Of a stretch of DNA of 64,000 nucleotides, positions 4,806 to 37,295 are shown piece after piece. The position numbers and the translations under genes are program-made. Position 1 is the first letter of the stretch, and each line of letters opens with the position of its first letter. The notes beneath the pieces are model-generated. The model saw nothing but the letters and a program-made list of their open reading frames with translations, was not told the DNA's origin and did no database searches. The DNA lies in the NCBI GenBank assembly GCA_963922205.1, contig CAWUHX010000025.1, forward strand, positions 186,001-250,000. The letters run 5' to 3'. The DNA comes from Romanomermis culicivorax (taxonomy: Eukaryota; Nematoda; Enoplea; Mermithida; Mermithidae).

Positions 4806-4808
4806 CAG

Positions 4809-6435: not shown

Positions 6436-7025
6436 TGTTGTGGAGCAATTTGACGTATTTGTAAAGCTCGTGTCGTTTGCGAAAAAGATCGGCAAGTTTG
6501 AATTGGAAAGATCGTGACGAGACCACCGAAGAGGCGTGGCTACAACGTGAAGAAATTATGAAAGTGTTTTTCATTAGTTTTGCGTTGTACTGTAGCCGAA
6601 TGGTTGTGTTTTTTTGGCGTTTGTCTGGAAAAGTGTGTGGCGGCTTTGTACATTAGTAAATTGTGTGAAAAGTGTGTTCTAAGTTGAGTCAAACTATTTG
6701 GAAAATAGTTTGAGTGAGCGAGTGAAACTCCTAAGCGGTTACGAATATACGGCGCGAGTTTCAGCATCCGAAAACCTTTGGCGACCTGAGCGAAGATCCC
6801 TAGATAAAATTGACACAGCGCTCTCTACGAGCCCGTCAATCTCCTGCGTTCGACTATCGTTGCGTTAAATCCGATAAACACTCCGGGTGTTTCGTCTACA
6901 GCGTTCCGCACGCTCTTCTACGTTCCGTACGTCTCTTCTAAAACGCGCGATAAATCGTCGAGCTACACAGCTAAATTCTCATCTGCGTTCCGTCGTCTAT
7001 CATCTCTATTTTCTCACGCACGACA
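6436..7025 (+). repeat. R1 3' LTR
   Basis: 590 bases running from TGTTGTG after the polypurine tract to CACGACA, which are inverted ends with one mismatch. At 7026 the sequence switches to the minus-strand integrase of element M. The matching 5' LTR and the target duplication lie outside the window, so the boundaries rest on the ends alone. Confidence 0.6.
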
Positions 7026-7510
7026 TTCCCAATTACCCATTGGATGATAAGGGGTAGTGTGTACCTTTTCTGTATTGCATAACTTTGTGATATTTGTAAA
7101 AAGTTCGGATGTGAAATCTGAAGCCCTATCACAATGTATAATGTTTGGGGCTCCATGATGGCAAACGATTTTTTCAACAAAAAGAGAAGCGATTGTTTGT
7201 GATGTTATGTTAGGGGTAGCAAATGCTTCCACATATTTTGTAAAGTAGTCAATAAAAACTACAACATAAAAGTTCCCATTGCCAGACATGGGGAGAGAAC
7301 CCATGCAGTCCAATCCCACTCCTTCAAATGGTTGAGAAACCCGAACTAGGACCAAATCCGCTTTGATCCCACATCTAGGGGGCTTATTGAACTGACACTT
7401 TTGACAAGTTTTGCAATATTGTTCCACAAATTTTCGCATTTGAGGCCAAAAATTTTTTTGTTTTATATTTTCATACATTTTTCTGGAAGAAAAGTGTCCT
7501 GCAAATTTGC
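7026..7510 (-). pseudogene. Element M integrase fragment
   Basis: Minus-strand translation shows the end of the HHCC zinc finger (GHFSSRK, then CKTCQKC), the core with the first Asp (VGLDCMG) and second Asp (IIHCDRASDF), and TTPYHP just before the catalytic Glu. It is cut at 7026 by the R1 LTR, so the Glu and the C-terminal module are missing here. It is closest to the integrase of element A. Confidence 0.85.
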
Positions 7511-8092
7511 TTTTGCAACCGCCCTGATCTCCAAGGGTGCTGATAAGACTGTTGCCATCCCAAGAGGCCACTTGTCCCTCCTCGATAATCAAATTTTCTA
7601 CTGTTTGACAATTATCGAAGCAGCACCACTTATACTGTAGGTCAAGTTTATTGTTTGTTGACCAAATACCCAGGGTTGTTTCATTCACAAACTGACCATG
7701 GAAAATTTTTGTTTTCATTGCTATTTTGCATTCAAAAGCGGTCAAAGTTTTCACAAAAATTTGGTCAAAAATTTTACTTTTTGGGCCGAAAAACCCAACC
7801 TGCATGCAAATTTTTTAAGTCCAAAGGGTACACTTGAACCCCATTGTATGTTTTGGTTGGGCTAACAGTCTGAAAACCTGTCCCATGACAAGGGTGGGAT
7901 TTTTGTCAGAAGGGGGTCTTACACATGCAATATTTTTTGGAATTTCTATGGTGTGTCCACTGGTCGAAGTTCCACAAAGCTGCAATGTTTTTATTGGACT
8001 GCCGGCCATGGGGAGAAAAATAAAACAAAAACATATAAACAATGAAAAAAAATTTCATTTCTATTTTTTTCTTGTCTGGCCAATCTGGCCTT
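7511..8092 (-). pseudogene. Element M envelope-like glycoprotein, N-terminal fragment
   Basis: Minus-strand frames, with a shift near 7815, match the N-terminal env region of element A: an early CGTS-SGH-IEIP cysteine motif, KCTLW, IWSTNN, the YKWCC cysteine pair and ASWDGNSLISTLGD. The match ends at about 7511 and is fused directly to the integrase frame, so the C-terminal env half, protease, RT and RNaseH are deleted. The start lies across the element A insertion. Confidence 0.8.
8089..8092 (+). repeat. Target-site duplication CCTT, left copy (element A)
   Basis: CCTT directly precedes LTR1 and recurs at 25757-25760 directly after LTR3. A 4-bp duplication fits Ty3/gypsy-type integration and shows that the outer ends belong to one insertion event in element M. 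Confidence 0.75.
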
Positions 8093-8990
8093 TGTAACGT
8101 ACCTGCTAAAGCAGTACTGTAAATATGTAGCATACTGTATGTAATAGACATTTATTAGATATTATCTTACTTCCACATTTTATCCTCTCAAGGGTGTCTG
8201 GGATTCACACCCAAACATTCCTATAAAATTACGTGAAGTACTTTATTTTGATCCGTTCACACCCCAGTAGCCCAATTAAGATGCCCTAATTAATTTGCAC
8301 AAACGGCAGCTGTTCCCCTAGAACCTACGCTAAACTACACATTCCACAGCTACCGTAATCCCCCGTAAAAATCGTGAACAACACCTGCACACAGAAATAT
8401 ACATAGATGCCCTGCCAGACAGTAGTCTCAAGTGTAACGGTAGCGGCGGCCCCACAAAACATGTGTATACAGAGAAACCGATACAGGAAGCATGCACAGA
8501 AGCACAAAGGTGTGGCCAAGCCCACCGTAGGAAGCAAGCAAAGCACAGAAAGCATACAGTACCAGGGAAGCGTTAGAGAGGTGTAACTAAGTAAGCATAA
8601 AAAGCGTAGCAGGAAACGACGATTGGCGGAAGAAGATGGACAGAAGCTCGACCTCCCGTGACGCCCAGGGAGTGGCCAAAATCGCCGTATAAAAGAAGAA
8701 GCAAAGCGTGATTTGATCATTCTTATTCTTGTGGTTTTACATTTTTTCGACTCCCGCGCTCGCCCCGTCCCTTTTTTATACATTTGCAAGCCGCCAATTA
8801 TTTGAAAGCAACCTAAACTGAGGCCCCGTTCGTATTATAAATTGAAACACCTTTTGTATTGTCGACGTTCAAGCGACTGTCTATCATTCGTATATTATCG
8901 CCCCGTATTGTACCGCCTGCGCCCCATTGTCCCTGCCGTATCGACCGATTGGTTAGAAGTAAAGTACCTCACACAAATCTGGTCGTTACA
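8093..8990 (+). repeat. Element A LTR1 (5')
   Basis: 898 bp, beginning TGTAACG and ending CGTTACA, a perfect 7-bp inverted end pair. A TATA box (TATAAAAG) lies at 8688-8695. Antisense and sense ORFs inside the LTR are not considered genes. Confidence 0.95.
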
Positions 8991-8995
8991 TATTT

Positions 8996-9008: not shown

Positions 9009-9233
9009 GTTACGTTAACCACTGGAACTCCCTGCCCCCAATTAGGTGTACTCTTATCCGGGCATTTAGAAGCATTCGATAATACAGTAGTAATCATTTC
9101 CTACAGTAAGACAGTATTCGTAGAAAGCAAACTGGAAATCCCCTCCAACGAGACATTAAGTGATACATTTAAACGAATACAGCGTGAAGCAAAAATTGAA
9201 GCATTTAAGCAGAAATCCCAACGCAAACCAAGA

Positions 9234-10751
9234 ATGACCCACCAAACGCAAGATCATTTAGGAGAAATCGTTAGAGAACAGATAAACGATTTATTTTCAG
9301 AGCATTTTCGTACCCTACGCACACAATTGAATCAGAATACAGTAAACCCTACCCTAATAGACGATCTCAGAACAGCAAACATTCGTAATAACATGGCAAA
9401 TAATTTCTACACGAAACCTACAGTATTCATGGGCGGCGTGACCCAACATTTTGGTGAATGGAACAAAAAATTAGAACAATTCATGGCACTCCAAGGCATG
9501 AAAGATACAGACGTACAGTTAAAGTTGGCATGTTTAGAAATTCATTTAGGAGGAGCCGGGTTAGCAAAATTCAAAAGTTTAGCAAATTCCGAAAACCCTC
9601 CCCACACATACGAGCAGTATAAAGTCGCATTACAGGCCTTTTTCCCAAACAATAGAGATAATGAGCTACATCAACAATTCTTACGCAAGAGAAAGCAAAA
9701 GCAATCAGAAACATTAACGGAATTCTTATTTGATCTAGAACATCTCGCATCCCTCGCCTACCCTAACTTTAACACAGACGCACGAGTAATGATCATAAAA
9801 CCCCTCTTTGTAGAAGGCATGCAAAACGAAATCAGGGAAGCAATTAAGTATCAAAGGTTCCCAACTCTAAAAGAAATGTCAGACTAAGCAGCTTACATTG
9901 AACAGCAAATCCTTAGAAATAAGTTAAAATCTAACGTCCTTCCCTTCATACCCCCAAAACCCGAACCCATCTTTTCCCTCACAAAAAATACAGACCAACA
10001 GGATCTTTTGCATCAGTTAGAACAAGAAGTAAAAGATTTACAGTTGCAGATCAAACAAAAACCTCAATCCCCACAACAAAGTAGCTACAACAATTTCAGT
10101 AACAATACTTTCAGCAGGAATAATGCTTACAGGAACAATACCACCCCTAGGCAGCCCACATGCTTCCAGTGTGGACAAATTGGACACGTAGCTCGTAATT
10201 GTAAATCAGTAGGCACCCGAAAATCATGTGAAATCTGTTTCCGTAATAATCACAGTACACGTGATTGTAAAAGCCGATGCATCCACTGCTCCCAAACAGG
10301 ACATAGATCAGATAACTGCCTTTCAAAACCCTACTCCAATTTTCAATGTTTTCTATGCAAGCAGAGAGGTCATACAAGCAGGTATTGTCCAAATCAGCAG
10401 AGTCGTGATATTCAAAATTGCATTGAGTACAGGCAACCCCAACCCCTCATGGACATTGACGACCCCGCATTTTACTCAAAATTACCCACCATAACTAATG
10501 GCCCTCAGACTACTTTAGGAACTATCATGCCCAACACCCACCGCCGTAGTGACAAATACGTCCTTGATCTGGACGTACCGGATTGGTGCGCCATGTCACC
10601 ACCCCCCTCGCCTGAAGCCGCAAAAATCGAAAAATCGCTGCCCACCATCCCCGTAGGCTACAAGATCCCCCGAAAGCAAGACACTACGCCGCCCACGGCC
10701 CCCGAAACCCCGTCGAAAACAGGAACTTGTTATCCCTTCTCCATGGCCTGA
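9234..10751 (+). pseudogene. Element A gag, copy 1 (nonsense mutation)
   Basis: Same protein as the copy 2 gag at 17617-19134, but codon 218 is TAA (9885-9887) where copy 2 has GAA. Capsid-like sequence lies before the stop and four CCHC knuckles after it, so the product lacks the nucleocapsid part. Since copy 2 is intact here, the stop arose after the tandem duplication. An upstream Met at 8859 lies inside the LTR, so 9234 is preferred as the start. Confidence 0.88.
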
Positions 10752-10850
10752 CCCCCGAACCCTACCAATTCCGCCACCGCCAAACACTTCTACCGACCCC
10801 CCCAAGTAAGCAAGTCCAAACCCCATCCCATGACTCATTTTCTAAAATTT

Positions 10851-10855
10851 TACAG
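10851..10855 (+). promoter_or_regulatory. Candidate 3' splice site upstream of env (copy 1)
   Basis: AAAATTTTACAG ends here, between the gag stop and the env signal peptide. The same string occurs at the equivalent place in copy 2 (ends 19238) and in element M (minus, ends 25853). Spliced env messages are known for gypsy-type errantiviruses. No donor was identified. Confidence 0.35.
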
Positions 10856-10982
10856 ACCGTTCAGATTTCAAACCGGCCACCCCCAGCTCAAAACCGCAAA
10901 ACGACAACACTCGCCACACCAAATCGAGCAGAGCGAAAAAACACAGTGCCCCGCCGCCTCCACTAAAACATTCTATTGGCCG

Positions 10983-11381
10983 ATGTTTTGTATTTTTCTT
11001 TGTATAATAATCCCCACATTGTGTAGTGCCCAATTTCAGATGTGTGGAACTTCATTGAGCGGTCACTCAATCAGCATACCAAAACTTGTATCATGCATGC
11101 CCCCTTCCACAGTAGACAAACCCGTACAGACATTTGGAAAAATCTATATCCCCTCCACTAAGCCCCACATTACAGACGCATACAAATGCAGTGTTCGCAA
11201 ACGCAAAATTTGTACTAATACAGGATTTTTTGGATCAACAGGTATTGTCTTCGACCAAACCGAAATGCAAAATCTAACCCCACATGTTTGTAAGGCAATC
11301 GTTATAGACAAAGAACACAACGGTCAAAAATTATACGAAACCCAACCAGGATTTTGGTCAACAAATAACTCCCTAAGCTAG
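10983..11381 (+). pseudogene. Element A env-like glycoprotein, N-terminal part, copy 1
   Basis: From Met 10983 there is a typical signal peptide (hydrophobic FCIFLCIIIPTLCSA) followed by a cysteine-containing ectodomain start (MCGTSLSGHSISIP). The open frame extends upstream to 10830, but Met 10983 sits at the signal peptide. The frame ends at a TAG (11379-11381); homologous sequence continues in the -1 frame from about 11377. The early cysteine/GH/IP pattern and overall layout resemble the fusion glycoproteins of some negative-strand RNA viruses and errantivirus-like elements, but this is a weak inference. Unusually, it lies before the protease and pol. Confidence 0.75.
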
Positions 11382-13756
11382 AATACACATGGTGTTGTAC
11401 AGACCATTGTACCTCGGTCACTAACATCATCATAGAAATAGGAAAAATAGCATCTTGGAATGGAAAATCTATGACAGGTACATTAGGTGACCTAGGGTCA
11501 TGCAAACCGACATCAGGCCATTGTGTAACAACTGAGGGATCCATTATCTGGAATGAAACAGCATTTGAAAACTTATGCCCCTTCGAATACAAAAACACAC
11601 ATCCCATCAAACTCACACAAACCCACATGATAATAGAAGAACTACAAGGTGCATTCTCGGTTAAAAACACACTATTTTCCAACCCCAATTGCCCAGAAAT
11701 CCAAGACAGCATTCTAACCGAACAAGGCATTATTGTACAATTAGACAAAAGCACACCACATCGTAACACATTTTTAACCCCAAAAACCAACGAAACCCAT
11801 ACTACACTATACGCTTTTGATGATTTTGTACCCATTAACGCGAAACTCAATTATCTAGCAGACAAAATCCAGGAATTCGAAATTGAAAATTTCAAAAACG
11901 TATGGAATGAATTATGCAGACTGGCACAGCGTCACCTTGATCTCATATGGCAAATTTTGCGCCTTGATGCAACCCTTGGAGCGCGTGCATTCCTACAGAG
12001 AACCGATATCATAGCAGAATTCACAGGAGAAGCCCTCACAGTCTGGCCTTGCAAGCAGGTAAATGCATCTAAAATCTTTTACAACCACAAAATCAACCAA
12101 ACATGCTACAAACTTTTACCCATTCTCATAGGAACCGAACTCATGTTTTCGAATCCAGGAGGCAACAATTTGACCCCTTTCTCACAAACCGTTGACTGCC
12201 ATCACATGCATGTAGCCCTTTACAAACAGAATAATACATGGGTCAGTGAAACAGGATCCCCGCATGTCACCAATTTACCGTTAGTAATCGTCTGGAACCA
12301 AAATTTCTCCCTTTTCCATTTTAATACACCCGCAATTTTTCATGATCAACTTGCAACTATTTCAACCAACTTACTCTTTTTGAAACAATACATTTACAAA
12401 ACTCACACACTCGAAAATGTTGTTAAAAAACTCGTCAATTACACCGCGCAAATGTCTCTCAACTCAGATACAGTTTACAACATGATCTCAGGCACTGGCC
12501 AAGCCCTTGGAAATACCCTCTCTGGCGCCAGTCAAGGCATAGAACATGTAATAACCGGTACCACCCAAAGTCTCATGGACGGACTAAACAATTTACTCAA
12601 AGGACCCCTGCAAATCATTATAAATCTAGCCGTTATTACTGTAGTTATTGCAGGCGTCTTTTATTCTTTTCTCGTCCTTCGAAAATATTTCCCCTCTCCA
12701 AAGCAGCATGCCACAAACGAACATGCATACGAAATACCATCGAACAACAGACATTTACATGAGACCATTCCCCCATCATTCGGCCATGCACTCTTAGAAT
12801 TAGCTAATCGTCGTGGGGCACAAACGCAGCAGAAATACGTCCTTGTCGATATTGATACCCCCCGAACTCCTGCAATCGAACTCATTAATCAAATTCACCA
12901 ATCTGCATCAAATAAGCCACCCCAAAATGTACCTGAGAAACATACCCCTCATATTCCAATCACACTTAATGGCAAATTAATGACAAAAGGCATGATTGAC
13001 ACTGGTGCAGTTTACTCATTCATTGATTCCCGAATTGCTCAAATCCTACAGTTAGACATGAAACCCCCGCTAGTCCAAGCAAAAGCAGCAAATAATCTTC
13101 TGATTCATTTTGTAGGGACCACTTTTGTCACAGTGACAGCCCAAACAATCCAGGAAACAATCATGGTCCATGTCCAAAAAGATTGCACAGCAGACATCCT
13201 TCTAGGCAAAAACTTTCTCAGTCCATTTTCGGAATACACTATCAACAATCAAAAATCTCAGGTCAAATTTGGCAATGTCATACTACCTTGTGACAGCCTA
13301 GAATACAGCCCACTTTCGACCCGTGGTGGAACTTATTTAGACGAGAAATTAGAATTACCACCCCGTACAGTAACCAAATTCACTGTCCCCTTGCCCAAAT
13401 CGTACCTACAAGTTAAACAGCTCGAATTCACTCCGAAACCCAAACAGAATCCTAAAGTCCATTTTGCAGCCTGTATCTCTGAAAACCAAAACAGTCGCAT
13501 AGGCATATCCGTCCTAAACACACAAGAAACAGCCCAAACCCTTTACCCTAGAACATGCATTGGTACAGTCTCCTGTTACATCCCAAAACAAAATGCTTCC
13601 GTTAACATGCCCCCCTCCACGCAAAACCAGCCCAACCGTTTTGATACATTCACATGGTTAAAAGAAAACGTTAATTTAACCTCCAGTGACTTGACAGAAG
13701 CAGAAAAAAATGTAACTCTTACACGCCCTATCGGAGTATCCTACATTATATGCTAA
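11382..13756 (+). CDS. Element A env C-terminal part fused in frame to retropepsin, copy 1
   Basis: One open frame; from Met 11471 it is 761 aa. Residues 1-375 are the rest of the glycoprotein ectodomain with sequons (NET, NAS, NQT, NNT, NFS, NYT) and a conserved membrane-proximal region (NTPAIFHDQL, LVNYTAQMSL). Residues about 380-403 form a transmembrane helix followed by basic LRKYF. After a 90-residue Gln/Pro-rich linker comes a retroviral-type aspartic protease: DTGA at 510-513 and ILLGKNFL about 75 residues later. Topology would put the protease in the cytosol as a tail of a type I membrane protein. The frame stops at 13754-13756; the RT N-terminus begins in another frame. Confidence 0.85.
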
Positions 13757-13763
13757 ATCCAAA

Positions 13764-15508
13764 ATGGATGTAGGTAGAACCACCCTCGTTTCACATACAA
13801 TTGACACCAATGGCTCCCAACCCATACGTAGACAACTTTATCGGACTTCCCCAAAAGAAAAGCAAATCATACAAGCAGAAGTTGAGCAACTCGCAGCAGC
13901 AGGTGTCATAAGCCAAAGCAATGGTGTACCAACACAGTTTTAGTTCCCAAAAAAGATGGAGGCCATCGTTTATGCATTGATTTTAGAGGCCTCAATAAAG
14001 TCTCAAAAAAAGACACATACCCTTTGCCCCGTATAGACGAAATTCTAGACACCCTTCGTGGAATGAAATATTTTACGTCCCTTGACCAATCCAATGCATA
14101 CTATTCCATTCCCATAGCACAAGCAGACAGAGAAAAAACAGCCTTTAATTGCTCAGCCGGCCAGTATCAATTCAATTACCTCCCCTTTGGACTCACCAAT
14201 GCCCCAGCCACATTCCAAAGGTTAATGGATGTTATCCTCTCGGGACTGCAATGGAACACATGCCTTGTGTATCTCAATGATGGTTTGGTATTCGCAGACT
14301 CCCATGCCCAAATGCTGAAACGTTTAGACACTATTCTTGCCCGATTCTCACAAGCAGGCCTTAAGCTAAACATACAAAAATGCAAATTCTGCCAGCCCCA
14401 AGTCCAATACTTAGGCCACGTCATTTCCCAGCAAGGCATTTCACCAGATCCCCATAAGGTACAGGCCATCTATGACATACCCACACCCAAAAGCTCAAAA
14501 GAAGTTAAGTCATTCCTTGGCCTACCCTCGTATTATCCCAGATTCATCCCAAATTGCTCTCAAGTTTCTAGCCCACTCACATTGTTACTCAAAAAGAATT
14601 CGGAATTTTCCTGGGGCCCCGAACAGCAAAACGCATTCACTAAGCTCAAAGAATTACTCATCCATGCCCCAATACTGCAGCATCCCGATTTTACAAAACC
14701 ATTTATTCTGCAAACTGACGCCTCAAAACTCGGAATCGGCGCCATTCTCAGTCAGCTAGATAGTAAAGGTCAGGATCGCCCCATTGCTTTTCGAAGCCGC
14801 ACATTGAAACCCGCAGAACGCAACTACCTGATCACTGAGTTGGAAACCCTTGCAGTAGTAGAGTTTGTCAAGTATTTCTGCCCCGATCTTTTCCAGCAAC
14901 ATGTTATTGTACACACTGACCATACAGCAGTTCAGACAGTCTTACAAAAGGAAAACTCGTCCCCTCGCATTGCCCGTTGGGGATTAGCCCTCTCTGGTAT
15001 CCAGTTAGACATTCGACCCAAGAAAGGCACTGCTAACCGCAACGCAGATGCAGTTTCTCGATTCCCCTCACAGACAGCAAAACAATCCTTTGACATCGAT
15101 CAATTAGAAACCCAACCCGACATATCCACTATCAATTCGGTTTTGGAAGCTGAAGCAACTGAACAAGAAGAGCAACAGAAAAATTTTGCTGAACTCCAAC
15201 GCACTGATCCCACTGTCAAAAGTATTTTAGCGAAAATCGCCCAAAAACACCCCCTTACCCTGATCAAATTCACAGTGCATCAAAACATCCTCTTTCGTAT
15301 AGTCGACAAACAAGCAAAACTATACATTCCCAAGTCACAAGTCCAGCATCTCATCGCCTCACATCATGACAGCAAATTCACAGGTCATTTTGCAGCCCGA
15401 AAAACTTTACACTTGCTCAGACAAAAATATTTCTGGCCCCAAATGAGCCGTGATATCAAACGTTACTGCAAAACTTGCCACCCATGCCAGACACAGAAAG
15501 CCCTCTGA
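13764..15508 (+). pseudogene. Element A reverse transcriptase-RNaseH and integrase zinc finger, copy 1
   Basis: The RT N-terminus is open from 13764 to a TAG at 13941-13943. The remainder is in another frame (long ORF 14024-15508), so a frameshift lies near 13935. RT fingers (VPKKDGGHR, LCIDFRGLN), palm (LDQSNAYYSIPI, FNYLPFGLTNAPATFQ) and the active-site box are seen. The box reads YLND (14270-14281) instead of YxDD, which should abolish polymerisation. RNaseH acidic residues appear in LQTDASKLG, ITELETLA and HTDHTAV. The ORF ends in the integrase HHCC domain (KFTGHFAARK, CKTCHPC) at an in-frame TGA (15506-15508). Confidence 0.9.
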
Positions 15509-16444
15509 CACAAAGTGCATGCAAACTTGGTACCAATTCAGCCGACTGGCCCATTTGATCGAGTCGGTGTTGATTGCATGGGACCGTTACTCCTCACTGA
15601 AGACTGCAACCGATTCCTTGTCGTTTTCATCGATTATTTCACAAAATATGTAGAGGCATTCCCGACCCCTGACATCACTGCAGCCACTATTGCCAAGCTA
15701 TTCATAACCAAAATTGTTTGCCATCATGGGTCCCCAAAAATCATCCATTGTGATCGTGGCTCCGATTTTGTATCCGATCTCTTCTCATGGATAACTAGTT
15801 TATGCAATACTCAGAAAATTCATACCACCCCATATCATCCCTTTGCCAATGGGGAAGTTGAGCATTGCAACCAAACCCTAGCCACCCGTATCCGCATGTA
15901 CATCAATTCAAATCACACTGATTGGGATACTTATCTGCCCTATGCCGTTTTTTCGATCAACATTCATAAAAATGATAGCACATCGTATCCCCCATTTGAA
16001 TTACTCCACGGTAGGCAAGCTAATCTGCCGTCAGATGCAGCTTTAAATTTTTTCCCCACGTCCTACATGGTTGATTTAGATGATTACGCCCTTCGTGTAA
16101 AATCGCATTTTACAGAAGCACTCTCAACCGTGCAGAAAAGTTTGCAAAAAGCCCAAGCCCACTATACCCGTCAGTATAACAAGCATGCTCAGAACATACA
16201 TTACAAGGCAGGTGATCTTATTCTCTACAAAAATCATTCATGTAAACAAGGGTTGACTCCCAAATTCCTCCCTCGCCAAAATGGGCCCTATACAGTTACA
16301 AATTTCATGTACCCCAACGTTACACTCAAACACCCCCATAAGAATATTACATTTACGGTGCATGTAAATGAGACAACCCCTTTCTACCCTCGGAAAGCAG
16401 TTAACGAATCTACCCCCACCCCTCCTCAACCTCCAAAGCCTTGA
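15509..16444 (+). pseudogene. Element A integrase core and C-terminal domain, copy 1
   Basis: Same frame as the preceding ORF after the TGA; first Met at 15515. It shows the DDE triad (Asp in GVDCMGPL, Asp in IHCDRGSDF, Glu in NGEVEHCNQT) and a GPY/F module (QNGPYTVTNF). It ends 19 bases before the polypurine tract, leaving no room for an env gene after pol. That independently supports env lying upstream. Confidence 0.9.
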
Positions 16445-16462
16445 ACGAGGACGTTCAACTCC

Positions 16463-16475
16463 GGAAGGAGGGAAA
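16463..16475 (+). promoter_or_regulatory. Element A polypurine tract, copy 1
   Basis: GGAAGGAGGGAAA abuts LTR2 at TGTAACG, and the same tract precedes LTR3 (24846-24858). It is the expected plus-strand primer. Confidence 0.85.
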
Positions 16476-17373
16476 TGTAACGTACCTGCTAAAGCAGTAC
16501 TGTAAATATGTAGCATACTGTATGTAATAGACATTTATTAGATATTATTTTACTTCCACATTTTATCGTCTCAAGGGTGTCTGGGATTCACACCCAAACA
16601 TTTCTATAAAATTACGTGAAGTACTTTATTTTGATCCGTTCACACCCCGGTAGCCCAATTAAGATGCCCTAATTAATTTGCACAAACGGCAGCTGTTCCC
16701 CTAGAACCTACACTAAACTACACATTCCACAGCTACCGTAATCCCCCGTAAAAATCGTAAACAACACCTGCACACAGTAAAATACATAGAAGCCCGGCCA
16801 GACAGTAGTCTCAAGTGTAACGGTAGCGGCGGTCCCACAAAACATGTGTATACAGAGAAACGGATACAGGAAGCATGCACAGAAGCACAAAGGTGTGGCC
16901 AAGCCCACCGTAGGAAGCAAGCAAAGCACAGAAAGCATACAGTACCAGGGAAGCGTTAGAGAGGTGTAACTAAGTAAGCATAAAAAGCGTAGCAGGAAAC
17001 GACGATTGGCGGAAGAAGATGGACAGAAGCTCGACCTCCCGTGACGCCCAGGGAGTGGCCAAAATCGCCGTATAAAAGAAGAAGCAAAGCGTGATTTGAT
17101 CATTCTTATTCTTGTGGTTTTACATTTTTTCGACTCCCGCGCTCGCCCCGTCCCTTTTTTATACATTTGCAAGCCGCCAATTATTTGAAAGCAACCTAAA
17201 CTGAGGCCCCGTTCGTATTATAAATTGAAACACCTTTTGTATTGTCGACGTTCAAGCGACTGTCTATCATTCGTATATTATCGCCCCGTATTGTACCGCC
17301 TGCGCCCCATTGTCCCTGCCGTATCGACCGATTGGTTAGAAGTAAAGTACCTCACACAAATCTGGTCGTTACA
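16476..17373 (+). repeat. Element A LTR2 (middle, hybrid)
   Basis: 898 bp. From its start to 16862 it carries LTR3 variants wherever LTR1 and LTR3 differ. From 16950 to its end it carries LTR1 variants. It is therefore a recombinant with the crossover between 16863 and 16949. TATA box at 17071-17078. Confidence 0.92.
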
Positions 17374-17616: not shown

Positions 17617-19134
17617 ATGACCCACCAAACGCAAGATCATTTAGGAGAAATCGTTAGAGAACAGATAAACGATTTATTTTCAGAGCATTTTCGTACCCTA
17701 CGCACACAATTGAATCAGAATACAGTAAACCCTACCCTAATAGACGATCTCAGAACAGCAAACATTCGTAATAACATGGCAAATAATTTCTACACGAAAC
17801 CTACAGTATTCATGGGCGGCGTGACCCAACATTTTGGTGAATGGAACAAAAAATTAGAACAATTCATGGCACTCCAAGGCATGAAAGATACAGACGTACA
17901 GTTAAAGTTGGCATGTTTAGAAATTCATTTAGGAGGAGCCGGGTTAGCAAAATTCAAAAGTTTAGCAAATTCCGAAAACCCTCCCCACACATACGAGCAG
18001 TATAAAGTCGCATTACAGGCCTTTTTCCCAAACAATAGAGATAATGAGCTACATCAACAATTCTTACGCAAGAGAAAGCAAAAGCAATCAGAAACATTAA
18101 CGGAATTCTTATTTGATCTAGAACATCTCGCATCCCTCGCCTACCCTAACTTTAACACAGACGCACGAGTAATGATCATAAAACCCCTCTTTGTAGAAGG
18201 CATGCAAAACGAAATCAGGGAAGCAATTAAGTATCAAAGGTTCCCAACTCTAAAAGAAATGTCAGACGAAGCAGCTTACATTGAACAGCAAATCCTTAGA
18301 AATAAGTTAAAATCTAACGTCCTTCCCTTCATACCCCCAAAACCCGAACCCATCTTTTCCCTCACAAAAAATACAGACCAACAGGATCTTTTGCATCAGT
18401 TAGAACAAGAAGTAAAAGATTTACAGTTGCAGATCAAACAAAAACCTCAATCCCCACAACAAAGTAGCTACAACAATTTCAGTAACAATACTTTCAGCAG
18501 GAATAATGCTTACAGGAACAATACCACCCCTAGGCAGCCCACATGCTTCCAGTGTGGACAAATTGGACACGTAGCTCGTAATTGTAAATCAGTAGGCACC
18601 CGAAAATCATGTGAAATCTGTTTCCGTAATAATCACAGTACACGTGATTGTAAAAGCCGATGCATCCACTGCTCCCAAACAGGACATAGATCAGATAACT
18701 GCCTTTCAAAACCCTACTCCAATTTTCAATGTTTTCTATGCAAGCAGAGAGGTCATACAAGCAGGTATTGTCCAAATCAGCAGAGTCGTGATATTCAAAA
18801 TTGCATTGAGTACAGGCAACCCCAACCCCTCATGGACATTGACGACCCCGCATTTTACTCAAAATTACCCACCATAACTAATGGCCCTCAGACTACTTTA
18901 GGAACTATCATGCCCAACACCCACCGCCGTAGTGACAAATACGTCCTTGATCTGGACGTACCGGATTGGTGCGCCATGTCACCACCCCCCTCGCCTGAAG
19001 CCGCAAAAATCGAAAAATCGCTGCCCACCATCCCCGTAGGCTACAAGATCCCCCGAAAGCAAGACACTACGCCGCCCACGGCCCCCGAAACCCCGTCGAA
19101 AACAGGAACTTGTTATCCCTTCTCCATGGCCTGA
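17617..19134 (+). CDS. gag: Element A gag, copy 2 (intact)
   Basis: About 505 aa from Met 17617, chosen because the upstream open frame begins inside the LTR. Residues about 55-235 are capsid-like (GEWNKKLEQFM, LEIHLGGAGLAKF, AFFPNN, LTEFLFDLEHLA). A coiled, Gln-rich stretch follows. Then come four CX2CX4HX4C zinc knuckles (CFQCGQIGHVARNC, CEICFRNNHSTRDC, CIHCSQTGHRSDNC, CFLCKQRGHTSRYC) that bind genomic RNA. Four knuckles is high for metavirids. The C-terminus is Pro-rich. The ORF ends before the env unit, without overlap with pol. Confidence 0.92.
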   Translation: MTHQTQDHLGEIVREQINDLFSEHFRTLRTQLNQNTVNPTLIDDLRTANIRNNMANNFYTKPTVFMGGVTQHFGEWNKKLEQFMALQGMKDTDVQLKLACLEIHLGGAGLAKFKSLANSENPPHTYEQYKVALQAFFPNNRDNELHQQFLRKRKQKQSETLTEFLFDLEHLASLAYPNFNTDARVMIIKPLFVEGMQNEIREAIKYQRFPTLKEMSDEAAYIEQQILRNKLKSNVLPFIPPKPEPIFSLTKNTDQQDLLHQLEQEVKDLQLQIKQKPQSPQQSSYNNFSNNTFSRNNAYRNNTTPRQPTCFQCGQIGHVARNCKSVGTRKSCEICFRNNHSTRDCKSRCIHCSQTGHRSDNCLSKPYSNFQCFLCKQRGHTSRYCPNQQSRDIQNCIEYRQPQPLMDIDDPAFYSKLPTITNGPQTTLGTIMPNTHRRSDKYVLDLDVPDWCAMSPPPSPEAAKIEKSLPTIPVGYKIPRKQDTTPPTAPETPSKTGTCYPFSMA

Positions 19135-19365
19135 CCCCCGAACCCTACCAATTCCGCCACCGCCAAACACTTCTACCGACCCCCCCAAGTAAGCAAGTCC
19201 AAACCCCATCCCATGACTCATTTTCTAAAATTTTACAGACCGTTCAGATTTCAAACCGGCCACCCCCAGCTCAAAACCGCAAAACGACAACACTCGCCAC
19301 ACCAAATCGAGCAGAGCGAAAAAACACAGTGCCCCGCCGCCTCCACTAAAACATTCTATTGGCCG

Positions 19366-19764
19366 ATGTTTTGTATTTTTCTTTGTATAATAATCCCCAC
19401 ATTGTGTAGTGCCCAATTTCAGATGTGTGGAACTTCATTGAGCGGTCACTCAATCAGCATACCAAAACTTGTATCATGCATGCCCCCTTCCACAGTAGAC
19501 AAACCCGTACAGACATTTGGAAAAATCTATATCCCCTCCACTAAGCCCCACATCACAGACGCATACAAATGCAGTGTTCGCAAACGCAAAATTTGTACTA
19601 ATACAGGATTTTTTGGATCAACAGGTATTGTCTTCGACCAAACCGAAATGCAAAATCTAACCCCACATGTTTGTAAGGCAATCGTTATAGACAAAGAACA
19701 CAACGGTCAAAAATTATACGAAACCCAACCAGGATTTTGGTCAACAAATAACTCCCTAAGCTAG
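19366..19764 (+). pseudogene. Element A env-like glycoprotein, N-terminal part, copy 2
   Basis: Identical in layout to copy 1: signal peptide at the Met, cysteine-rich start of the ectodomain, TAG at 19762-19764 with homology continuing in the -1 frame. One silent base difference from copy 1 (19554). The break is older than the tandem duplication because both copies carry it. Confidence 0.75.
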
Positions 19765-22139
19765 AATACACATGGTGTTGTACAGACCATTGTACCTCGG
19801 TCACTAACATCATCATAGAAATAGGAAAAATAGCATCTTGGAATGGAAAATCTATGACAGGTACATTAGGTGACCTAGGGTCATGCAAACCGACATCAGG
19901 CCATTGTGTAACAACTGAGGGATCCATTATCTGGAATGAAACAGCATTTGAAAACTTATGCCCCTTCGAATACAAAAACACACATCCCATCAAACTCACA
20001 CAAACCCACATGATAATAGAAGAACTACAAGGTGCATTCTCGGTTAAAAACACACTATTTTCCAACCCCAATTGCCCAGAAATCCAAGACAGCATTCTAA
20101 CCGAACAAGGCATTATTGTACAATTAGACAAAAGCACACCACATCGTAACACATTTTTAACCCCAAAAACCAACGAAACCCATACTACACTATACGCTTT
20201 TGATGATTTTGAACCCATTAACGCGAAACTCAATTATCTAGCAGACAAAATCCAGGAATTCGAAATTGAAAATTTCAAAAACGTATGGAATGAATTATGC
20301 AGACTGGCACAGCGTCACCTTGATCTCATATGGCAAATTTTGCGCCTTGATGCAACCCTTGGAGCGCGTGCATTCCTACAGAGAACCGATATCATAGCAG
20401 AATTCACAGGAGAAGCCCTCACAGTCTGGCCTTGCAAGCAGGTAAATGCATCTAAAATCTTTTACAACCACAAAATCAACCAAACATGCTACAAACTTTT
20501 ACCCATTCTCATAGGAACCGAACTCATGTTTTCGAATCCAGGAGGCAACAATTTGACCCCTTTCTCACAAACCGTTGACTGCCATCACATGCATGTAGCC
20601 CTTTACAAACAGAATAATACATGGGTCAGTGAAACAGGATCCCCGCATGTCACCAATTTACCGTTAGTAATCGTCTGGAACCAAAATTTCTCCCTTTTCC
20701 ATTTTAATACACCCGCAATTTTTCATGATCAACTTGCAACTATTTCAACCAACTTACTCTTTTTGAAACAATACATTTACAAAACTCACACACTCGAAAA
20801 TGTTGTTAAAAAACTCGTCAATTACACCGCGCAAATGTCTCTCAACTCAGATACAGTTTACAACATGATCTCAGGCACTGGCCAAGCCCTTGGAAATACC
20901 CTCTCTGGCGCCAGTCAAGGCATAGAACATGTAATAACCGGTACCACCCAAAGTCTCATGGACGGACTAAACAATTTACTCAAAGGACCCCTGCAAATCA
21001 TTATAAATCTAGCCGTTATTACTGTAGTTATTGCAGGCGTCTTTTATTCTTTTCTCGTCCTTCGAAAATATTTCCCCTCTCCAAAGCAGCATGCCACAAA
21101 CGAACATGCATACGAAATACCATCGAACAACAGACATTTACATGAGACCATTCCCCCATCATTCGGCCATGCACTCTTAGAATTAGCTAATCGTCGTGGG
21201 GCACAAACGCAGCAGAAATACGTCCTTGTCGATATTGATACCCCCCGAACTCCTGCAATCGAACTCATTAATCAAATTCACCAATCTGCATCAAATAAGC
21301 CACCCCAAAATGTACCTGAGAAACATACCCCTCATATTCCAATCACACTTAATGGCAAATTAATGACAAAAGGCATGATTGACACTGGTGCAGTTTACTC
21401 ATTCATTGATTCCCGAATTGCTCAAATCCTACAGTTAGACATGAAACCCCCGCTAGTCCAAGCAAAAGCAGCAAATAATCTTCTGATTCATTTTGTAGGG
21501 ACCACTTTTGTCACAGTGACAGCCCAAACAATCCAGGAAACAATCATGGTCCATGTCCAAAAAGATTGCACAGCAGACATCCTTCTAGGCAAAAACTTTC
21601 TCAGTCCATTTTCGGAATACACTATCAACAATCAAAAATCTCAGGTCAAATTTGGCAATGTCATACTACCTTGTGACAGCCTAGAATACAGCCCACTTTC
21701 GACCCGTGGTGGAACTTATTTAGACGAGAAATTAGAATTACCACCCCGTACAGTAACCAAATTCACTGTCCCCTTGCCCAAATCGTACCTACAAGTTAAA
21801 CAGCTCGAATTCACTCCGAAACCCAAACAGAATCCTAAAGTCCATTTTGCAGCCTGTATCTCTGAAAACCAAAACAGTCGCATAGGCATATCCGTCCTAA
21901 ACACACAAGAAACAGCCCAAACCCTTTACCCTAGAACATGCATTGGTACAGTCTCCTGTTACATCCCAAAACAAAATGCTTCCGTTAACATGCCCCCCTC
22001 CACGCAAAACCAGCCCAACCGTTTTGATACATTCACATGGTTAAAAGAAAACGTTAATTTAACCTCCAGTGACTTGACAGAAGCAGAAAAAAATGTAACT
22101 CTTACACGCCCTATCGGAGTATCCTACATTATATGCTAA
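19765..22139 (+). CDS. Element A env C-terminal part fused in frame to retropepsin, copy 2
   Basis: Same 761-aa frame as copy 1 (Met 19854), with one amino-acid difference (Glu for Val at 20211-20213). Ectodomain remainder, transmembrane helix at residues about 380-403, linker, and protease with DTGA at 510-513 and ILLGKNFL. No stop lies between the membrane anchor and the protease. The frame closes with TAA at 22137-22139. Confidence 0.85.
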
Positions 22140-22146
22140 ATCCAAA

Positions 22147-23891
22147 ATGGATGTAGGTAGAACCACCCTCGTTTCACATACAATTGACACCAATGGCTCC
22201 CAACCCATACGTAGACAACTTTATCGGACTTCCCCAAAAGAAAAGCAAATCATACAAGCAGAAGTTGAGCAACTCGCAGCAGCAGGTGTCATAAGCCAAA
22301 GCAATGGTGTACCAACACAGTTTTAGTTCCCAAAAAAGATGGAGGCCATCGTTTATGCATTGATTTTAGAGGCCTCAATAAAGTCTCAAAAAAAGACACA
22401 TACCCTTTGCCCCGTATAGACGAAATTCTAGACACCCTTCGTGGAATGAAATATTTTACGTCCCTTGACCAATCCAATGCATACTATTCCATTCCCATAG
22501 CACAAGCAGACAGAGAAAAAACAGCCTTTAATTGCTCAGCCGGCCAGTATCAATTCAATTACCTCCCCTTTGGACTCACCAATGCCCCAGCCACATTCCA
22601 AAGGTTAATGGATGTTATCCTCTCGGGACTGCAATGGAACACATGCCTTGTGTATCTCAATGATGGTTTGGTATTCGCAGACTCCCATGCCCAAATGCTG
22701 AAACGTTTAGACACTATTCTTGCCCGATTCTCACAAGCAGGCCTTAAGCTAAACATACAAAAATGCAAATTCTGCCAGCCCCAAGTCCAATACTTAGGCC
22801 ACGTCATTTCCCAGCAAGGCATTTCACCAGATCCCCATAAGGTACAGGCCATCTATGACATACCCACACCCAAAAGCTCAAAAGAAGTTAAGTCATTCCT
22901 TGGCCTACCCTCGTATTATCCCAGATTCATCCCAAATTGCTCTCAAGTTTCTAGCCCACTCACATTGTTACTCAAAAAGAATTCGGAATTTTCCTGGGGC
23001 CCCGAACAGCAAAACGCATTCACTAAGCTCAAAGAATTACTCATCCATGCCCCAATACTGCAGCATCCCGATTTTACAAAACCATTTATTCTGCAAACTG
23101 ACGCCTCAAAACTCGGAATCGGCGCCATTCTCAGTCAGCTAGATAGTAAAGGTCAGGATCGCCCCATTGCTTTTCGAAGCCGCACATTGAAACCCGCAGA
23201 ACGCAACTACCTGATCACTGAGTTGGAAACCCTTGCAGTAGTAGAGTTTGTCAAGTATTTCTGCCCCGATCTTTTCCAGCAACATGTTATTGTACACACT
23301 GACCATACAGCAGTTCAGACAGTCTTACAAAAGGAAAACTCGTCCCCTCGCATTGCCCGTTGGGGATTAGCCCTCTCTGGTATCCAGTTAGACATTCGAC
23401 CCAAGAAAGGCACTGCTAACCGCAACGCAGATGCAGTTTCTCGATTCCCCTCACAGACAGCAAAACAATCCTTTGACATCGATCAATTAGAAACCCAACC
23501 CGACATATCCACTATCAATTCGGTTTTGGAAGCTGAAGCAACTGAACAAGAAGAGCAACAGAAAAATTTTGCTGAACTCCAACGCACTGATCCCACTGTC
23601 AAAAGTATTTTAGCGAAAATCGCCCAAAAACACCCCCTTACCCTGATCAAATTCACAGTGCATCAAAACATCCTCTTTCGTATAGTCGACAAACAAGCAA
23701 AACTATACATTCCCAAGTCACAAGTCCAGCATCTCATCGCCTCACATCATGACAGCAAATTCACAGGTCATTTTGCAGCCCGAAAAACTTTACACTTGCT
23801 CAGACAAAAATATTTCTGGCCCCAAATGAGCCGTGATATCAAACGTTACTGCAAAACTTGCCACCCATGCCAGACACAGAAAGCCCTCTGA
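22147..23891 (+). pseudogene. Element A reverse transcriptase-RNaseH and integrase zinc finger, copy 2
   Basis: Same breaks as copy 1: first frame 22147-22326 ending in TAG, main frame 22407-23891, YLND in the polymerase box (Asn codon 22659-22661), and in-frame TGA at 23889-23891. Shared lesions show that the parent was already inactive when duplicated. Confidence 0.9.
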
Positions 23892-24827
23892 CACAAAGTG
23901 CATGCAAACTTGGTACCAATTCAGCCGACTGGCCCATTTGATCGAGTCGGTGTTGATTGCATGGGACCGTTACTCCTCACTGAAGACTGCAACCGATTCC
24001 TTGTCGTTTTCATCGATTATTTCACAAAATATGTAGAGGCATTCCCGACCCCTGACATCACTGCAGCCACTATTGCCAAGCTATTCATAACCAAAATTGT
24101 TTGCCATCATGGGTCCCCAAAAATCATCCATTGTGATCGTGGCTCCGATTTTGTATCCGATCTCTTCTCATGGATAACTAGTTTATGCAATACTCAGAAA
24201 ATTCATACCACCCCATATCATCCCTTTGCCAATGGGGAAGTTGAGCATTGCAACCAAACCCTAGCCACCCGTATCCGCATGTACATCAATTCAAATCACA
24301 CTGATTGGGATACTTATCTGCCCTATGCCGTTTTTTCGATCAACATTCATAAAAATGATAGCACATCGTATCCCCCATTTGAATTACTCCACGGTAGGCA
24401 AGCTAATCTGCCGTCAGATGCAGCTTTAAATTTTTTCCCCACGTCCTACATGGTTGATTTAGATGATTACGCCCTTCGTGTAAAATCGCATTTTACAGAA
24501 GCACTCTCAACCGTGCAGAAAAGTTTGCAAAAAGCCCAAGCCCACTATACCCGTCAGTATAACAAGCATGCTCAGAACATACATTACAAGGCAGGTGATC
24601 TTATTCTCTACAAAAATCATTCATGTAAACAAGGGTTGACTCCCAAATTCCTCCCTCGCCAAAATGGGCCCTATACAGTTACAAATTTCATGTACCCCAA
24701 CGTTACACTCAAACACCCCCATAAGAATATTACATTTACGGTGCATGTAAATGAGACAACCCCTTTCTACCCTCGGAAAGCAGTTAACGAATCTACCCCC
24801 ACCCCTCCTCAACCTCCAAAGCCTTGA
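23892..24827 (+). pseudogene. Element A integrase core and C-terminal domain, copy 2
   Basis: Same frame after the TGA; DDE residues and the GPY/F module are present as in copy 1. It ends just before the polypurine tract of LTR3. Confidence 0.9.
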
Positions 24828-24858: not shown

Positions 24859-25756
24859 TGTAACGTACCTGCTAAAGCAGTACTGTAAATATGTAGCATA
24901 CTGTATGTAATAGACATTTATTAGATATTATTTTACTTCCACATTTTATCGTCTCAAGGGTGTCTGGGATTCACACCCAAACATTTCTATAAAATTACGT
25001 GAAGTACTTTATTTTGATCCGTTCACACCCCGGTAGCCCAATTAAGATGCCCTAATTAATTTGCACAAACGGCAGCTGTTCCCCTAGAACCTACACTAAA
25101 CTACACATTCCACAGCTACCGTAATCCCCCGTAAAAATCGTAAACAACACCTGCACACAGTAAAATACATAGAAGCCCGGCCAGACAGTAGTCTCAAGTG
25201 TAACGGTAGCGGCGGTCCCACAAAACATGTGTATACAGAGAAACGGATACAGGAAGCATGCACAGAAGCACAAAGGTGTGGCCAAGCCCACCGTAGGAAG
25301 CAAGCAAAGCACAGAAAGCATACAGTACCAGGAAAGCGTTAGAGAGGTGTAACTAAGTAAGCATAAAAAGCGTAGCAGGAAATGACGATTGGCGGAAGAA
25401 GATGGACAGAAGCTCGACCTCCCGCGACGCCCAGGGAGTGGCCAAAATCGCCGTATAAAAGAAGAAGCAAAGGGTTATTTGATCATTCTTATTCTTGTGG
25501 TTTTACATTTTTTCGACTCCCGCGCTCGCCCCGTCCCTTTTTTATACATTTGCAAGCGGCCAATTATTCGAAAGCAACCTAAACCGAGGCCCCGTTCGTA
25601 TTATAAATCGAAACGCGTTTTGTATTGTCGACGTTCAAGCGACCGTCGATCATTCGTATATTATCGCCCTGTATTGTACCGCCCGCGCCCCGTTGTCCCT
25701 GCAGTATCGACCGATTGGTTAGAAGTAAAGTACCTCACACAAATCTGGTCGTTACA
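24859..25756 (+). repeat. Element A LTR3 (3')
   Basis: 898 bp from TGTAACG to CGTTACA; TATA box 25454-25461. Its first half matches LTR2 and differs from LTR1. Its second half carries about 19 private differences from both, several at CG sites where the others have TG or CA. Confidence 0.95.
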
Positions 25757-25899: not shown

Positions 25900-27540
25900 A
25901 TTTTACCTAATCGTTCAAAAAAGGATTTTGGATGAACTTCTTTTTGGAACGCCGCAACGTTGGGTTCCAATGAACTGGGTTCCAACAGTGGAGCCCTGAA
26001 CGGCCTGCTAATTTTTTGGATACAAAAGTTGGCCAGCAGGACCTCTTTGTTGCTGGGTCCATTGATGTCTTGCGCCATTTCCATTTGTGGGGCCTAATTT
26101 TCTTTTTCGCCCACTTTTTCTGTTTCATCGTCTTCAGAACAAAATGACTTGAGCGTTCTTGGCGGGCTGCTATCCAGCGACTGGCTCGCTGGACAGCCCA
26201 CGCCCTAATTTTGCGTTGGTGTTGGGGAATAGTCATAGTCTAATGTTTCTGGTTCATCGAACATGATTGATAACAAAGACCCTACAAAAAAACAATGTTG
26301 CGATGAGTCATGCATTTCCCCAACTAAATCAGGGCCATCACCATCAAGAGGGTACCCATTTGGACATCCTTGGATGTTATTTTGCGCGTTTTTTGATTTT
26401 TGAGGGCAATTGCTGCTCCAATCCCCTTTTTCTTTACATGTGTAGCATTGAGTATCTTTCAACTGAGAACAAAATTTGCTCTTGTGTCCCATTTTTTACA
26501 ATGATAACATTTTGATCTGCAGTCATTTCTTGAGTGGCCATTTTGCCGACAAATTTTGCATTGCAGTTTGGATCTGCACTCATGGGCAAAATGACCAACT
26601 TTACCACATGTATGACACGTGACATCCTTTCTATTTGCATATTGTTTTTGATGTATGTTTTGTTGCATCTGTATGCATAATTTATTTAGTTTTTCATTTA
26701 TTTCATCTATTTGCTTATTCGTCTTACTTCCTGAGGGTTGCAAGGCAAGAACGGGCTCTTGCAACCCAACATTGTATCTGGCCGAAGGGGAAAACTGCAC
26801 ATTGGCCTCATTTCACAAAATTTCTTGTTCCACGAAAGTTGCTTCTTCAATTAAATGATTTAAATTAGTGAAACATTTAAATTTTACGGCTTTTCAGACA
26901 TCTGCCTGAAGCCCATCCAAAAAAATTGATTCAAGAATGGTGTTCCTTGCATTTGTGTCAAGAGTTGGGTAGGCGAGCCTTCTCATTTTTTTAAGTTCAT
27001 TGAAATATGCAGTAACCGTTTCGGTTCTTTTTTGTTTTCTATCTTTTAAACTATGTCTGTGAAAAAGGGCGTCCCATTGGTTGGGGAATGCTTATTCCAA
27101 AGCAACTTTAAATTGTCCATAGTTCGTGGGTAGATCATCAGAATTTGAAATATTTTCAAATTTTGTGAGGGCATCACCTCTAAGGTGAAACTCCAAAAAA
27201 ATTCTTTTTAGTTGATCATCTTCGTTTTTTATTCTTTTCAAAATCATTTGTTTTTCGAGTTTTTAGCCCATTCGGTAAAATTTTCGTTGGGCAGTCCGAA
27301 AAAGACCAGAAAATAGTTAATTTTGGCTGAAAGCATGTCACCATGCAAGTAATTCACTCTAATTTCATTTATGGTCAATTCCGTGTGGGCTGCTTTTCTG
27401 TTCATTTGGGCTTCAAGGTTTTGAAGCCTCGGATCCAAGACCACAGCTAACACGTCTTGAACAACATGACCATGTGTGTCCTGATTTTGTAAGGGCATTT
27501 TTCGGATAATTTGATTTTTAGCATCTTGCTCAATGCACAA
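25900..27540 (-). pseudogene. Element M gag
   Basis: Minus-strand homologue of the element A gag, broken into several frames. The N-terminus starts at about 27540. CCHC knuckles appear at about 26640-26430 (CHTCGKVGHFAHEC, CKICRQNGHSRNDC, a third broken by a frameshift, and CYTCKEKGDWSSNC in which His is replaced). The C-terminal Asp/Pro-rich tail lies at 26300-26205. It lies between the M LTR and M env, giving gag-env order on this strand too. Confidence 0.82.
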
Positions 27541-27781
27541 AAATGTTTCACTTAAGGTCTCTGTACATTTATTTTCCAGATTTTATATAAAAACCCTGTT
27601 ATGGTACAAAAAACGTTCTTTATGTGAACCGAAGAGTTGTTTTTGGGGAAAAACCAAACTGATTTTTCCTCGCCAAATTCGAAAATCGAAAAAAACTAAA
27701 GTGGTTTTTGGGAAAGGGGACAATTTACATTAAATGTCCCGCAAAAATTTTAAAAGGTTCTTTTTTTTAATTTTATCCCCT

Positions 27782-31409: not shown

Positions 31410-31413
31410 AAAG
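31410..31413 (+). repeat. Candidate target-site duplication AAAG (element T, left)
   Basis: AAAG precedes TGTCACATG; a matching AAAG at 44108-44111 follows the proposed 3' LTR end. Confidence 0.35.
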
Positions 31414-31656
31414 TGTCACATGCCCCTCAATTCCCCAACGTCACGTGATTTTCATCATGTTGATACTTTATTTTTTCCCATCACTTTTTTGTTTTACAAT
31501 CATTTACTTTAATTTCATTCCATTTATTGTTCTGCACATGCATTTTTATGTTTTGTTTTATTGTATTTTTCGTTTATTTTATTATGCACGTGGGCTACAG
31601 TACGCCCTTTAGCTAAAAACTTCCGCCAAAAGGTGCTTCATGGGCACGTGGCTATT
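31414..31656 (+). repeat. Element T 5' LTR, truncated
   Basis: It aligns with 42848-43110 (shared TGTCACATG start, ATGCATTTTTATGTTTTG, CCCTTTAGCTAAAAACTTCC and GGCTATTT). At 31656 it jumps directly into gag, so the rest of the LTR, primer site and start of gag were deleted. Confidence 0.75.
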
Positions 31657-34778: not shown

Positions 34779-34779
34779 A

Positions 34780-36290: not shown

Positions 36291-36299
36291 GATGTGCCA

Positions 36300-37250: not shown

Positions 37251-37295
37251 TGAGGTCCTTTCCCCAATGCCCCATGCTCAGTCAGTTTTCACTAC

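Follow-up and report, generated by a model that had tools for sequence, protein, structure and literature searches.

Element A and the order of its genes

The stretch of DNA considered here (the window) comprises 64,000 nucleotides of the mermithid nematode Romanomermis culicivorax (GenBank assembly GCA_963922205.1, contig CAWUHX010000025.1, positions 186,001 to 250,000 of the forward strand). Our subject within it is element A, a Ty3/Gypsy provirus tandem at 8093-25756, in which two copies are enclosed by three long terminal repeats (LTRs) of 898 bp each, with the termini TGTAACG...CGTTACA and with CCTT at both outer flanks. An earlier note, made from the sequence alone, read in this element the order gag, glycoprotein, protease, reverse transcriptase (RT)-RNaseH and integrase with nothing after pol, and both statements are borne out: frames and Pfam place an envelope (Env)-like glycoprotein between gag and the protease, with RT-RNaseH and integrase following, and the integrase ends at 16444 in copy 1 and at 24827 in copy 2, 31 nt before the LTR, the last 13 nt being purine, which leaves no room for Env after pol. 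The features of element A, including the putative transmembrane segment (TM) of Env, are:

8093..8990, +, LTR1, 898 bp, outer flank CCTT
9234..10751, +, gag of copy 1, in-frame stop near 9887
10752..12707, +, Env-like glycoprotein of copy 1, frames 10752-11381 and from 11369
12938..13756, +, protease region of copy 1, in a frame common to the main Env part
13886..15508, +, RT-RNaseH-H2C2 of copy 1
15509..16444, +, integrase of copy 1, ending 31 nt short of LTR2
16463..16475, +, polypurine tract of copy 1, read from the sequence
16476..17373, +, LTR2, a recombinant of LTR1 and LTR3
17617..19134, +, gag of copy 2 with CCHC knuckles, within the open frame 17224-19134
19135..19764, +, Env N-terminal part of copy 2, signal-like segment about 19363-19419
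19752..about 21090, +, main Env part of copy 2, PF24664 match 20184-20687, TM 20997-21053
21321..22139, +, protease region of copy 2, DTGA, protease 21339-21605, frame shared with the main Env part
22269..23891, +, RT-RNaseH-H2C2 of copy 2, best PDB relative Ty3 (7q5b)
23892..24827, +, integrase core of copy 2
24859..25756, +, LTR3, right flank CCTT

A TGG... motif stands directly after LTR2. In copy 2 a frame of 795 codons holds the main Env part together with the protease, with the match to Pfam family PF24664 (Monjiviricetes_fusion) at residues 145-312, the TM near 416-434 and gag-asp_proteas at 530-618; the PF24664 match of this Env reaches 8e-19, or 67.5 bits vs a cut-off of 27. The RT finds its best PDB relative in Ty3 (7q5b, 7.7e-93), and the Pfam domains follow the order protease, RT, RNase H, integrase, as in the Metaviridae. 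The LTRs are likewise of the kind expected in that family, with TG...CA ends, a purine tract in A, and 4-bp duplications in A and in eight of nine copies outside the window; the elements do not fall in the Belpaoviridae, the RT being Ty3-like by both Pfam and PDB search.

All three elements of this type in the window, A and the diverged elements M and T described below, are damaged. The damage in A includes the gag stop of copy 1, a shift of frame within Env, further shifts between protease and RT, a stop ahead of the integrase core, and a change to the catalytic motif of RT. The strongest support for the layout comes from relatives elsewhere in the genome.

Copies and relatives elsewhere in the genome

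The genome searched was the 359-Mb assembly containing the window. The Env-protease frame of A gave 57 scored matches (the best of 5168 first-look candidates), of which the 55 outside the window are 94-96% identical, and 32 of these 55 lie in open frames of at least 2461 aa, one with a flagged TGA and one rearranged. Ten A-family copies, drawn from the best matches, were examined as separate left and right pieces. In nine of them a single frame of 2407-2409 aa runs from the first ATG through gag, Env, protease, RT, RNase H and integrase and stops about 30 nt before the 3' LTR; stops in the middle part were rechecked in seven of the nine, the other two (C266 and C449) resting on the match listing. 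The LTR pairs of the nine copies are 97.7-100% identical (100% in three), and 4-bp target duplications were seen in eight, the left LTR edge of C449 being unresolved; this choice from among the best matches biases both intactness and LTR identity upwards. Some A-family copies are, judging by their sequences, recent insertions. In an outside copy (L009) an unbroken frame of 1781 aa contains, by Pfam, zf-CCHC at 90-106, Monjiviricetes_fusion at 637-815 (3.1e-18), gag-asp_proteas at 1027-1116 and RVT_1 at 1358-1518, followed by RNase H.

The tenth copy (C122:529505), which we retained as a failure, lacks gag upstream of Env and has a further LTR and gag after it; at C122:525200-536200 (L050, L051) an A-family copy occupies a 3612-aa frame, with an extra LTR and gag past the integrase. 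This copy is, by its arrangement, another tandem or recombinant. The genome may hold further tandem proviruses, to judge from three Env matches at a spacing of 8365 bases on C180 and four at a spacing of 7039 bases on C31. Within the tandem of the window, LTR1 and LTR3 differ at 29 of 898 sites. LTR2 departs from LTR1 at 12 sites, each of them before LTR position 388, and from LTR3 at 17, each of them after 474, a split to be expected if the two LTRs of a single provirus had undergone unequal crossing over. Between the two inner copies there are 3 differences in 7485 sites.

Beyond the A family, a scan of the same genome with PF24664 gave 68 scored hits out of 2320 candidates, all 68 over the cut-off and the two window copies included, and no hits were obtained in 14 control genomes. 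Three diverged relatives, C382, C147 and C150, are respectively 53%, 42% and 38% identical to A in the main Env part and 63%, 52% and 43% in the RT frame. In each of them gag and a hydrophobic segment lie upstream of Env, and Env, protease and RT form one frame running into the integrase, within which the C150 frame breaks. The protease of C382 was found by Pfam, with no DTG/DSG string in the piece, and that of C147 and C150 rests on tblastn to A together with a DTG/DSG motif, with no Pfam listing at 0.001. At five more PF24664 loci, each represented by two 0.9-kb pieces, gag is upstream in five of five and RT downstream in four of five, the piece without RT being C36; as the gag of C36, C201 and C1:722826 is 94-99% identical to that of C382, these three are close kin of C382 and not further families. 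The Env piece of T gave 150 scored matches out of 2776 candidates, the window copy among them, and 40 of the 150 lie in frames of 3091-3116 aa, two of these with a flagged TGA; one T-family copy, seen as two pieces, has in frame gag, a signal-like segment, Env and its TM, then an extra region followed by protease and RT. A TM followed by a protease region occurs in all five families examined.

Gene order was examined, in pieces, at 19 of the several hundred listed matches outside the window. At 17 it is gag-env-RT, two are incomplete, and at none does pol lie 5' of env. On the evidence of these copies, the gag-env-pol layout is stably kept in an old lineage, many of whose members are apparently intact.

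The two other elements of this kind in the window, with M on the minus strand, are composed as follows:

26462..27606, -, gag of M, 28-34% identical to A gag
7494..8051, -, Env of M, open across the site where the Env frame of A breaks
7020..7511, -, H2C2/integrase of M, fused to M Env, the intervening protease and RT having been deleted
31413..31659, +, LTR-like repeat on the left side of T, ends approximate
31467..33045, +, gag region of T, match starting within the left repeat, ATG-initiated frame from 31659
33941..37087, +, Env of T, with an interruption at about 34.7-36.2 kb
37194..38805, +, extra region of the T family, from Env TM to protease, with a weak second retropepsin-like part
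38806..39237, +, protease of T
39775..41335, +, RT-RNaseH of T
41392..42307, +, integrase of T
42847..43112, +, right LTR-like repeat of T, ends approximate

Element A sits inside M, between the gag and Env of M. For both elements the order of A had been proposed. In T it holds, since gag, Env, protease, RT-RNaseH and integrase are matched in that sequence, but the extent to 44107 does not, for the repeat pair ends near 43112; in M the order gag-env-integrase stands and the remainder does not, protease and RT being missing, so that M backs gag-env-integrase only. The Env pieces of M and T match A by tblastn at E values from 2e-13 to 2e-59 (main Env part, 2e-59). Alone, the short T and M pieces stay below the PF24664 cut-off (best 0.031), and a T-family copy outside the window does reach it (29 bits). 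Between A and T the differences at codon positions 1/2/3 are 0.45/0.30/0.68 in the main Env part, 0.45/0.31/0.71 in RT and 0.44/0.29/0.66 in integrase, a position-3-heavy pattern that alignments picked at the protein level favour; its presence in Env as in RT and integrase, together with the strong E values, argues against chance matches.

In the T family about 390 residues separate the Env TM from the protease, vs about 95 in A. The intervening region (37194-38805; L070) contains DTG and a weak retropepsin-like match (Pfam 0.0096; DDI1 0.017), and is perhaps a second protease-like domain.

The relationships of these families were examined in several ways. Identity to A ranks C382 above C147 above C150 in the main Env part, RT, protease and gag, as would be expected if Env and pol descended together from an Env-bearing ancestor; the short Env N-terminal part does not separate C147 (34-37%) from C150 (36%). 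In the RT tree A, C382 and C147 group at 100/98, and with the position of C150 unsettled this tree does not show all Env-bearing families as one clade; its two Env-less rows are long branches. In the integrase tree A, M and T group at 84/86, not strongly, vs E1 and L001. Taken together, A, M and T look like offshoots of a single old lineage, neither independent acquisitions nor one recent amplification. Of the earlier view that independent families shared the order and so spoke against a local rearrangement, the second half survives, with gag-env-RT at 17 of the 19 outside loci, and the independence looks doubtful; the diverged families, with RTs 43-63% identical to that of A, would fit one old ancestor that already had Env in place.

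E1, at the left window edge, served as a control. It belongs to the Gypsy elements, its protease and RT share a frame, and it has no PF24664 match at 0.001; the gag-env-pol layout is thus not general in this genome. After its integrase (2292-6086) there are two long open reading frames (ORFs) of 837 and 425 aa, neither with a Pfam or NCBIfam match and the former without one in the PDB either; by eye the 837-aa ORF resembles a DEDDy 3'-5' exonuclease, a type which, in the part of the report available, is described for ORF3 of rotifer LTR elements (PMC5408684). Viral contigs scanned with the A Env-protease, the A RT, the RT alignment and the Env alignment contained no relative, and a scan of other genome contigs gave one Gypsy-like frame (L001), without an Env recognisable by eye, which is probably host contamination in a symbiont metagenome-assembled genome. 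The retroelement nest adjoins a host gene: at 48556-63822, minus strand, there are exons resembling DNA ligase III, one of which matches PDB DNA ligase 3 at 2.4e-17, the others being recognised by eye. The gene is probably that of an animal; a search for the nematode SL1 RNA gave no hit, its control being uninformative.

The glycoprotein, the long frame and the alternatives

The PF24664 match is one of two indications of what the glycoprotein might be. The other comes from a five-sequence Env profile, whose top two matches among PDB chains, both weak, are herpesvirus gB (8y48, 0.0056, and 9cu4, 0.014) and fall at overlapping stretches; 9cu4 is named ORF8 in its entry and is taken by us to be gB. 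Neither the A sequence by itself nor an initial Env alignment had a meaningful match in the PDB. Together the Pfam and gB hits point to, and by similarity suggest, a class III fusogen. The ectodomain residues that stay conserved across deep divergence include several cysteines, and the TM is retained as well. Among 25 stop-free copies of 28 outside loci (three with a stop left out, the two window copies excluded; 300 pairs) the mean dN of Env2 is 0.005 and the mean dS 0.124, a ratio of 0.041, with dN/dS of 0.059 in the protease part; measured against the window copy the ratios are 0.089 for Env2 and 0.138 for the protease part. By these ratios Env is under strong purifying selection.

Read along its length, the frame of an intact copy presents gag with zinc knuckles, a signal-like hydrophobic segment, an ectodomain, a TM, a short tail, and then protease, RT, RNase H and integrase. 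No 2A motif occurs in eight A-family and three other pieces, and no furin motif in the eight A-family pieces. The reading we prefer, at a probability of roughly 0.6, is that a Ty3/Gypsy lineage captured a fusion gene of the Monjiviricetes/gB type in frame between gag and protease and translates it as part of a membrane-threading polyprotein. Full-length RNA would be translated into a single Gag-Env-Pol chain, of which Gag would remain cytosolic, the internal signal would direct the ectodomain to the lumen and the TM anchor would halt transfer, such that protease, RT and integrase would emerge on the cytosolic side as the tail of Env. Signal peptidase could then free Gag, and the element's own protease could free Pol from the Env tail. 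As no stop separates Env from Pol, a message in the Env frame would also yield an Env-Pol fusion unless spliced again, and Pol should accordingly begin membrane-tethered; it might be packaged via Env as well as, or in place of, a Gag-Pol fusion. The product would likely be an enveloped particle, infectious or formerly so. More tentatively, and with rather less confidence than in the reading above, we suggest that the old lineage as a whole may replicate through such a polyprotein, RT and integrase being first made as the cytoplasmic tail of a fusogen of class III, an assembly route that would be unlike those described for retroviruses, errantiviruses and belpaoviruses. The earlier note, in this respect, had understated its observation, since intact copies add a continuous Gag-Env-Pol frame and a glycoprotein of the Monjiviricetes/gB type.

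Several results weigh against this interpretation. The gB matches are weak and the AlphaFold model of the Env piece, with a pLDDT of 35, is useless. The copies entering the dN/dS estimates are the best-scoring by protein similarity, which lowers dN somewhat. A itself has a stop in the gag-env zone, the copies of C147 and C150 are broken within gag or between gag and Env, and a continuous gag-env junction is found only in the A family, C382 and the T-family copy. Finally, a single polyprotein fixes Gag, Env and Pol at 1:1:1, a ratio not found in most retroviruses, unless it is shifted by splicing or internal initiation. Two other expression devices were discarded: stop-codon readthrough between gag and Env, prompted by the single TGA of A, because of the nine continuous outside copies without a stop there, and a programmed frameshift inside Env because of M, which stays open across that point.

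Whether the order itself is an artefact of local rearrangement, nested insertion or misassembly is a natural question in a window which is a nest, with A within M, A in tandem and T interrupted. The chance of this is close to nil: gag-env-RT recurs at 17 of the 19 outside loci, long single frames are found in 32 of 55 A-family and 40 of 150 T-family matches, and A-family copies are framed by LTR pairs and target duplications, so that the outside copies refute it, unless the whole assembly is unsound. A more serious alternative would have Env made from a separate spliced or internally initiated message, the long frame being merely the genomic form and the order regulatory. Errantiviruses and retroviruses do produce Env from spliced RNA, and in four of eight A-family pieces a Met (as an exact string) directly precedes the signal-like segment. 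We nevertheless consider such a message somewhat unlikely as the explanation, as no stop between Env and protease occurs in the seven rechecked A-family copies or in C147, C150 and C382, nor is one listed inside the matches of C266 and C449, and a spliced Env message would therefore run on into Pol unless spliced again.

It could also be that the captured glycoprotein no longer acts in entry and serves instead to anchor intracellular particles at the membrane or as a platform on which they assemble, a role for which a location between gag and pol, tethering both, would be well suited; this appears improbable given that the ectodomain cysteines and other residues are maintained along with the TM, and that the dN/dS of 0.04 spans much of the ectodomain. 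A different kind of objection is that the layout has already been described, in Chary & Hayashi (2025), in Repbase or in preprints, the first of which, according to papers citing it, reports envelope-carrying Gypsy elements across metazoans. We regard a prior description as fairly unlikely: the International Committee on Taxonomy of Viruses (ICTV) profile of the Metaviridae puts Env downstream of integrase (PMC7879559), the 2023 survey, as far as its available part goes, reports no clear capture of a Jingchuvirales glycoprotein by Gypsy (PMC10084718), and our literature searches, whose coverage did not extend to Chary & Hayashi (eLife 2025), turned up no gag-env-pol element that we recognised.

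Comparison with known systems

Env has so far been treated as a late addition at the 3' end of retroelements. An Env inside the core polyprotein, conserved about as strictly as the protease and surviving deep divergence, would mean that Env can become inseparable from Gag-Pol, and raises the questions of what determines the Gag:Env:Pol ratio, by what route Pol is packaged and whether tethering to the membrane takes the place of Gag-Pol frameshifting. With many copies apparently intact, and the LTRs identical in some of them, the host should be able to supply evidence at the RNA and protein level.

The nearest known systems are the errantiviruses and other env-bearing Metaviridae, which have in common with A the pol order protease, RT, RNase H, integrase, the LTRs, the polypurine tract and an Env gene (PMC7879559). 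In these, as the earlier note had held and as the ICTV profile states, Env where present is encoded downstream of integrase (PMC7879559), whereas here it lies in frame between gag and protease, with a 31-nt gap after the integrase of A and no pol 5' of env at any of the 19 outside loci, examined in pieces. In the position of Env the A-type elements depart from errantiviruses, a group marked by an Env 3' of pol and by monophyly with Gypsy of Drosophila. The errantivirus Env is, in the portion of the source available, usually cited as baculovirus-like (PMC12440569), and the present glycoprotein matches another family. Troyka was dropped as a candidate relative, having no Env and other termini in the sections available (PMC12440569).

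Likenesses of other kinds are found further afield, here compared from the available parts of the respective reports. Atlas virus, a hookworm belpaovirus, also has one continuous polyprotein that includes an RNA-virus-like glycoprotein, but its pol is BEL/Pao, the order is Gag-Pol-Env and the class II, phlebovirus-like Env stands at the C-terminus (PMC9094657). Similarly, the mosquito Pao element Anakin is an LTR element with a chuvirus glycoprotein of the Jingchuvirales type, differing in that it is BEL/Pao, whereas the elements here are Ty3/Gypsy with Env before pol (PMC7642597). Endogenous viral elements derived from Jingchuvirales glycoproteins are present in animal genomes, some near Gypsy fragments and with two nematode cases, although no clear Gypsy capture is seen by the authors, in contrast to the integral and conserved Gypsy gene described here (PMC10084718). 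Rotifer TelKA elements are LTR elements carrying a glycoprotein of a negative-strand RNA virus, yet one of the paramyxovirus F type (class I), encoded as ORF3 (PMC5408684). Cer1 of C. elegans, lastly, is a Ty3/Gypsy element with an extra protein, but its additional ORF lies behind pol, and what that ORF encodes is a nuclear export factor instead of an Env (PMC10309623).

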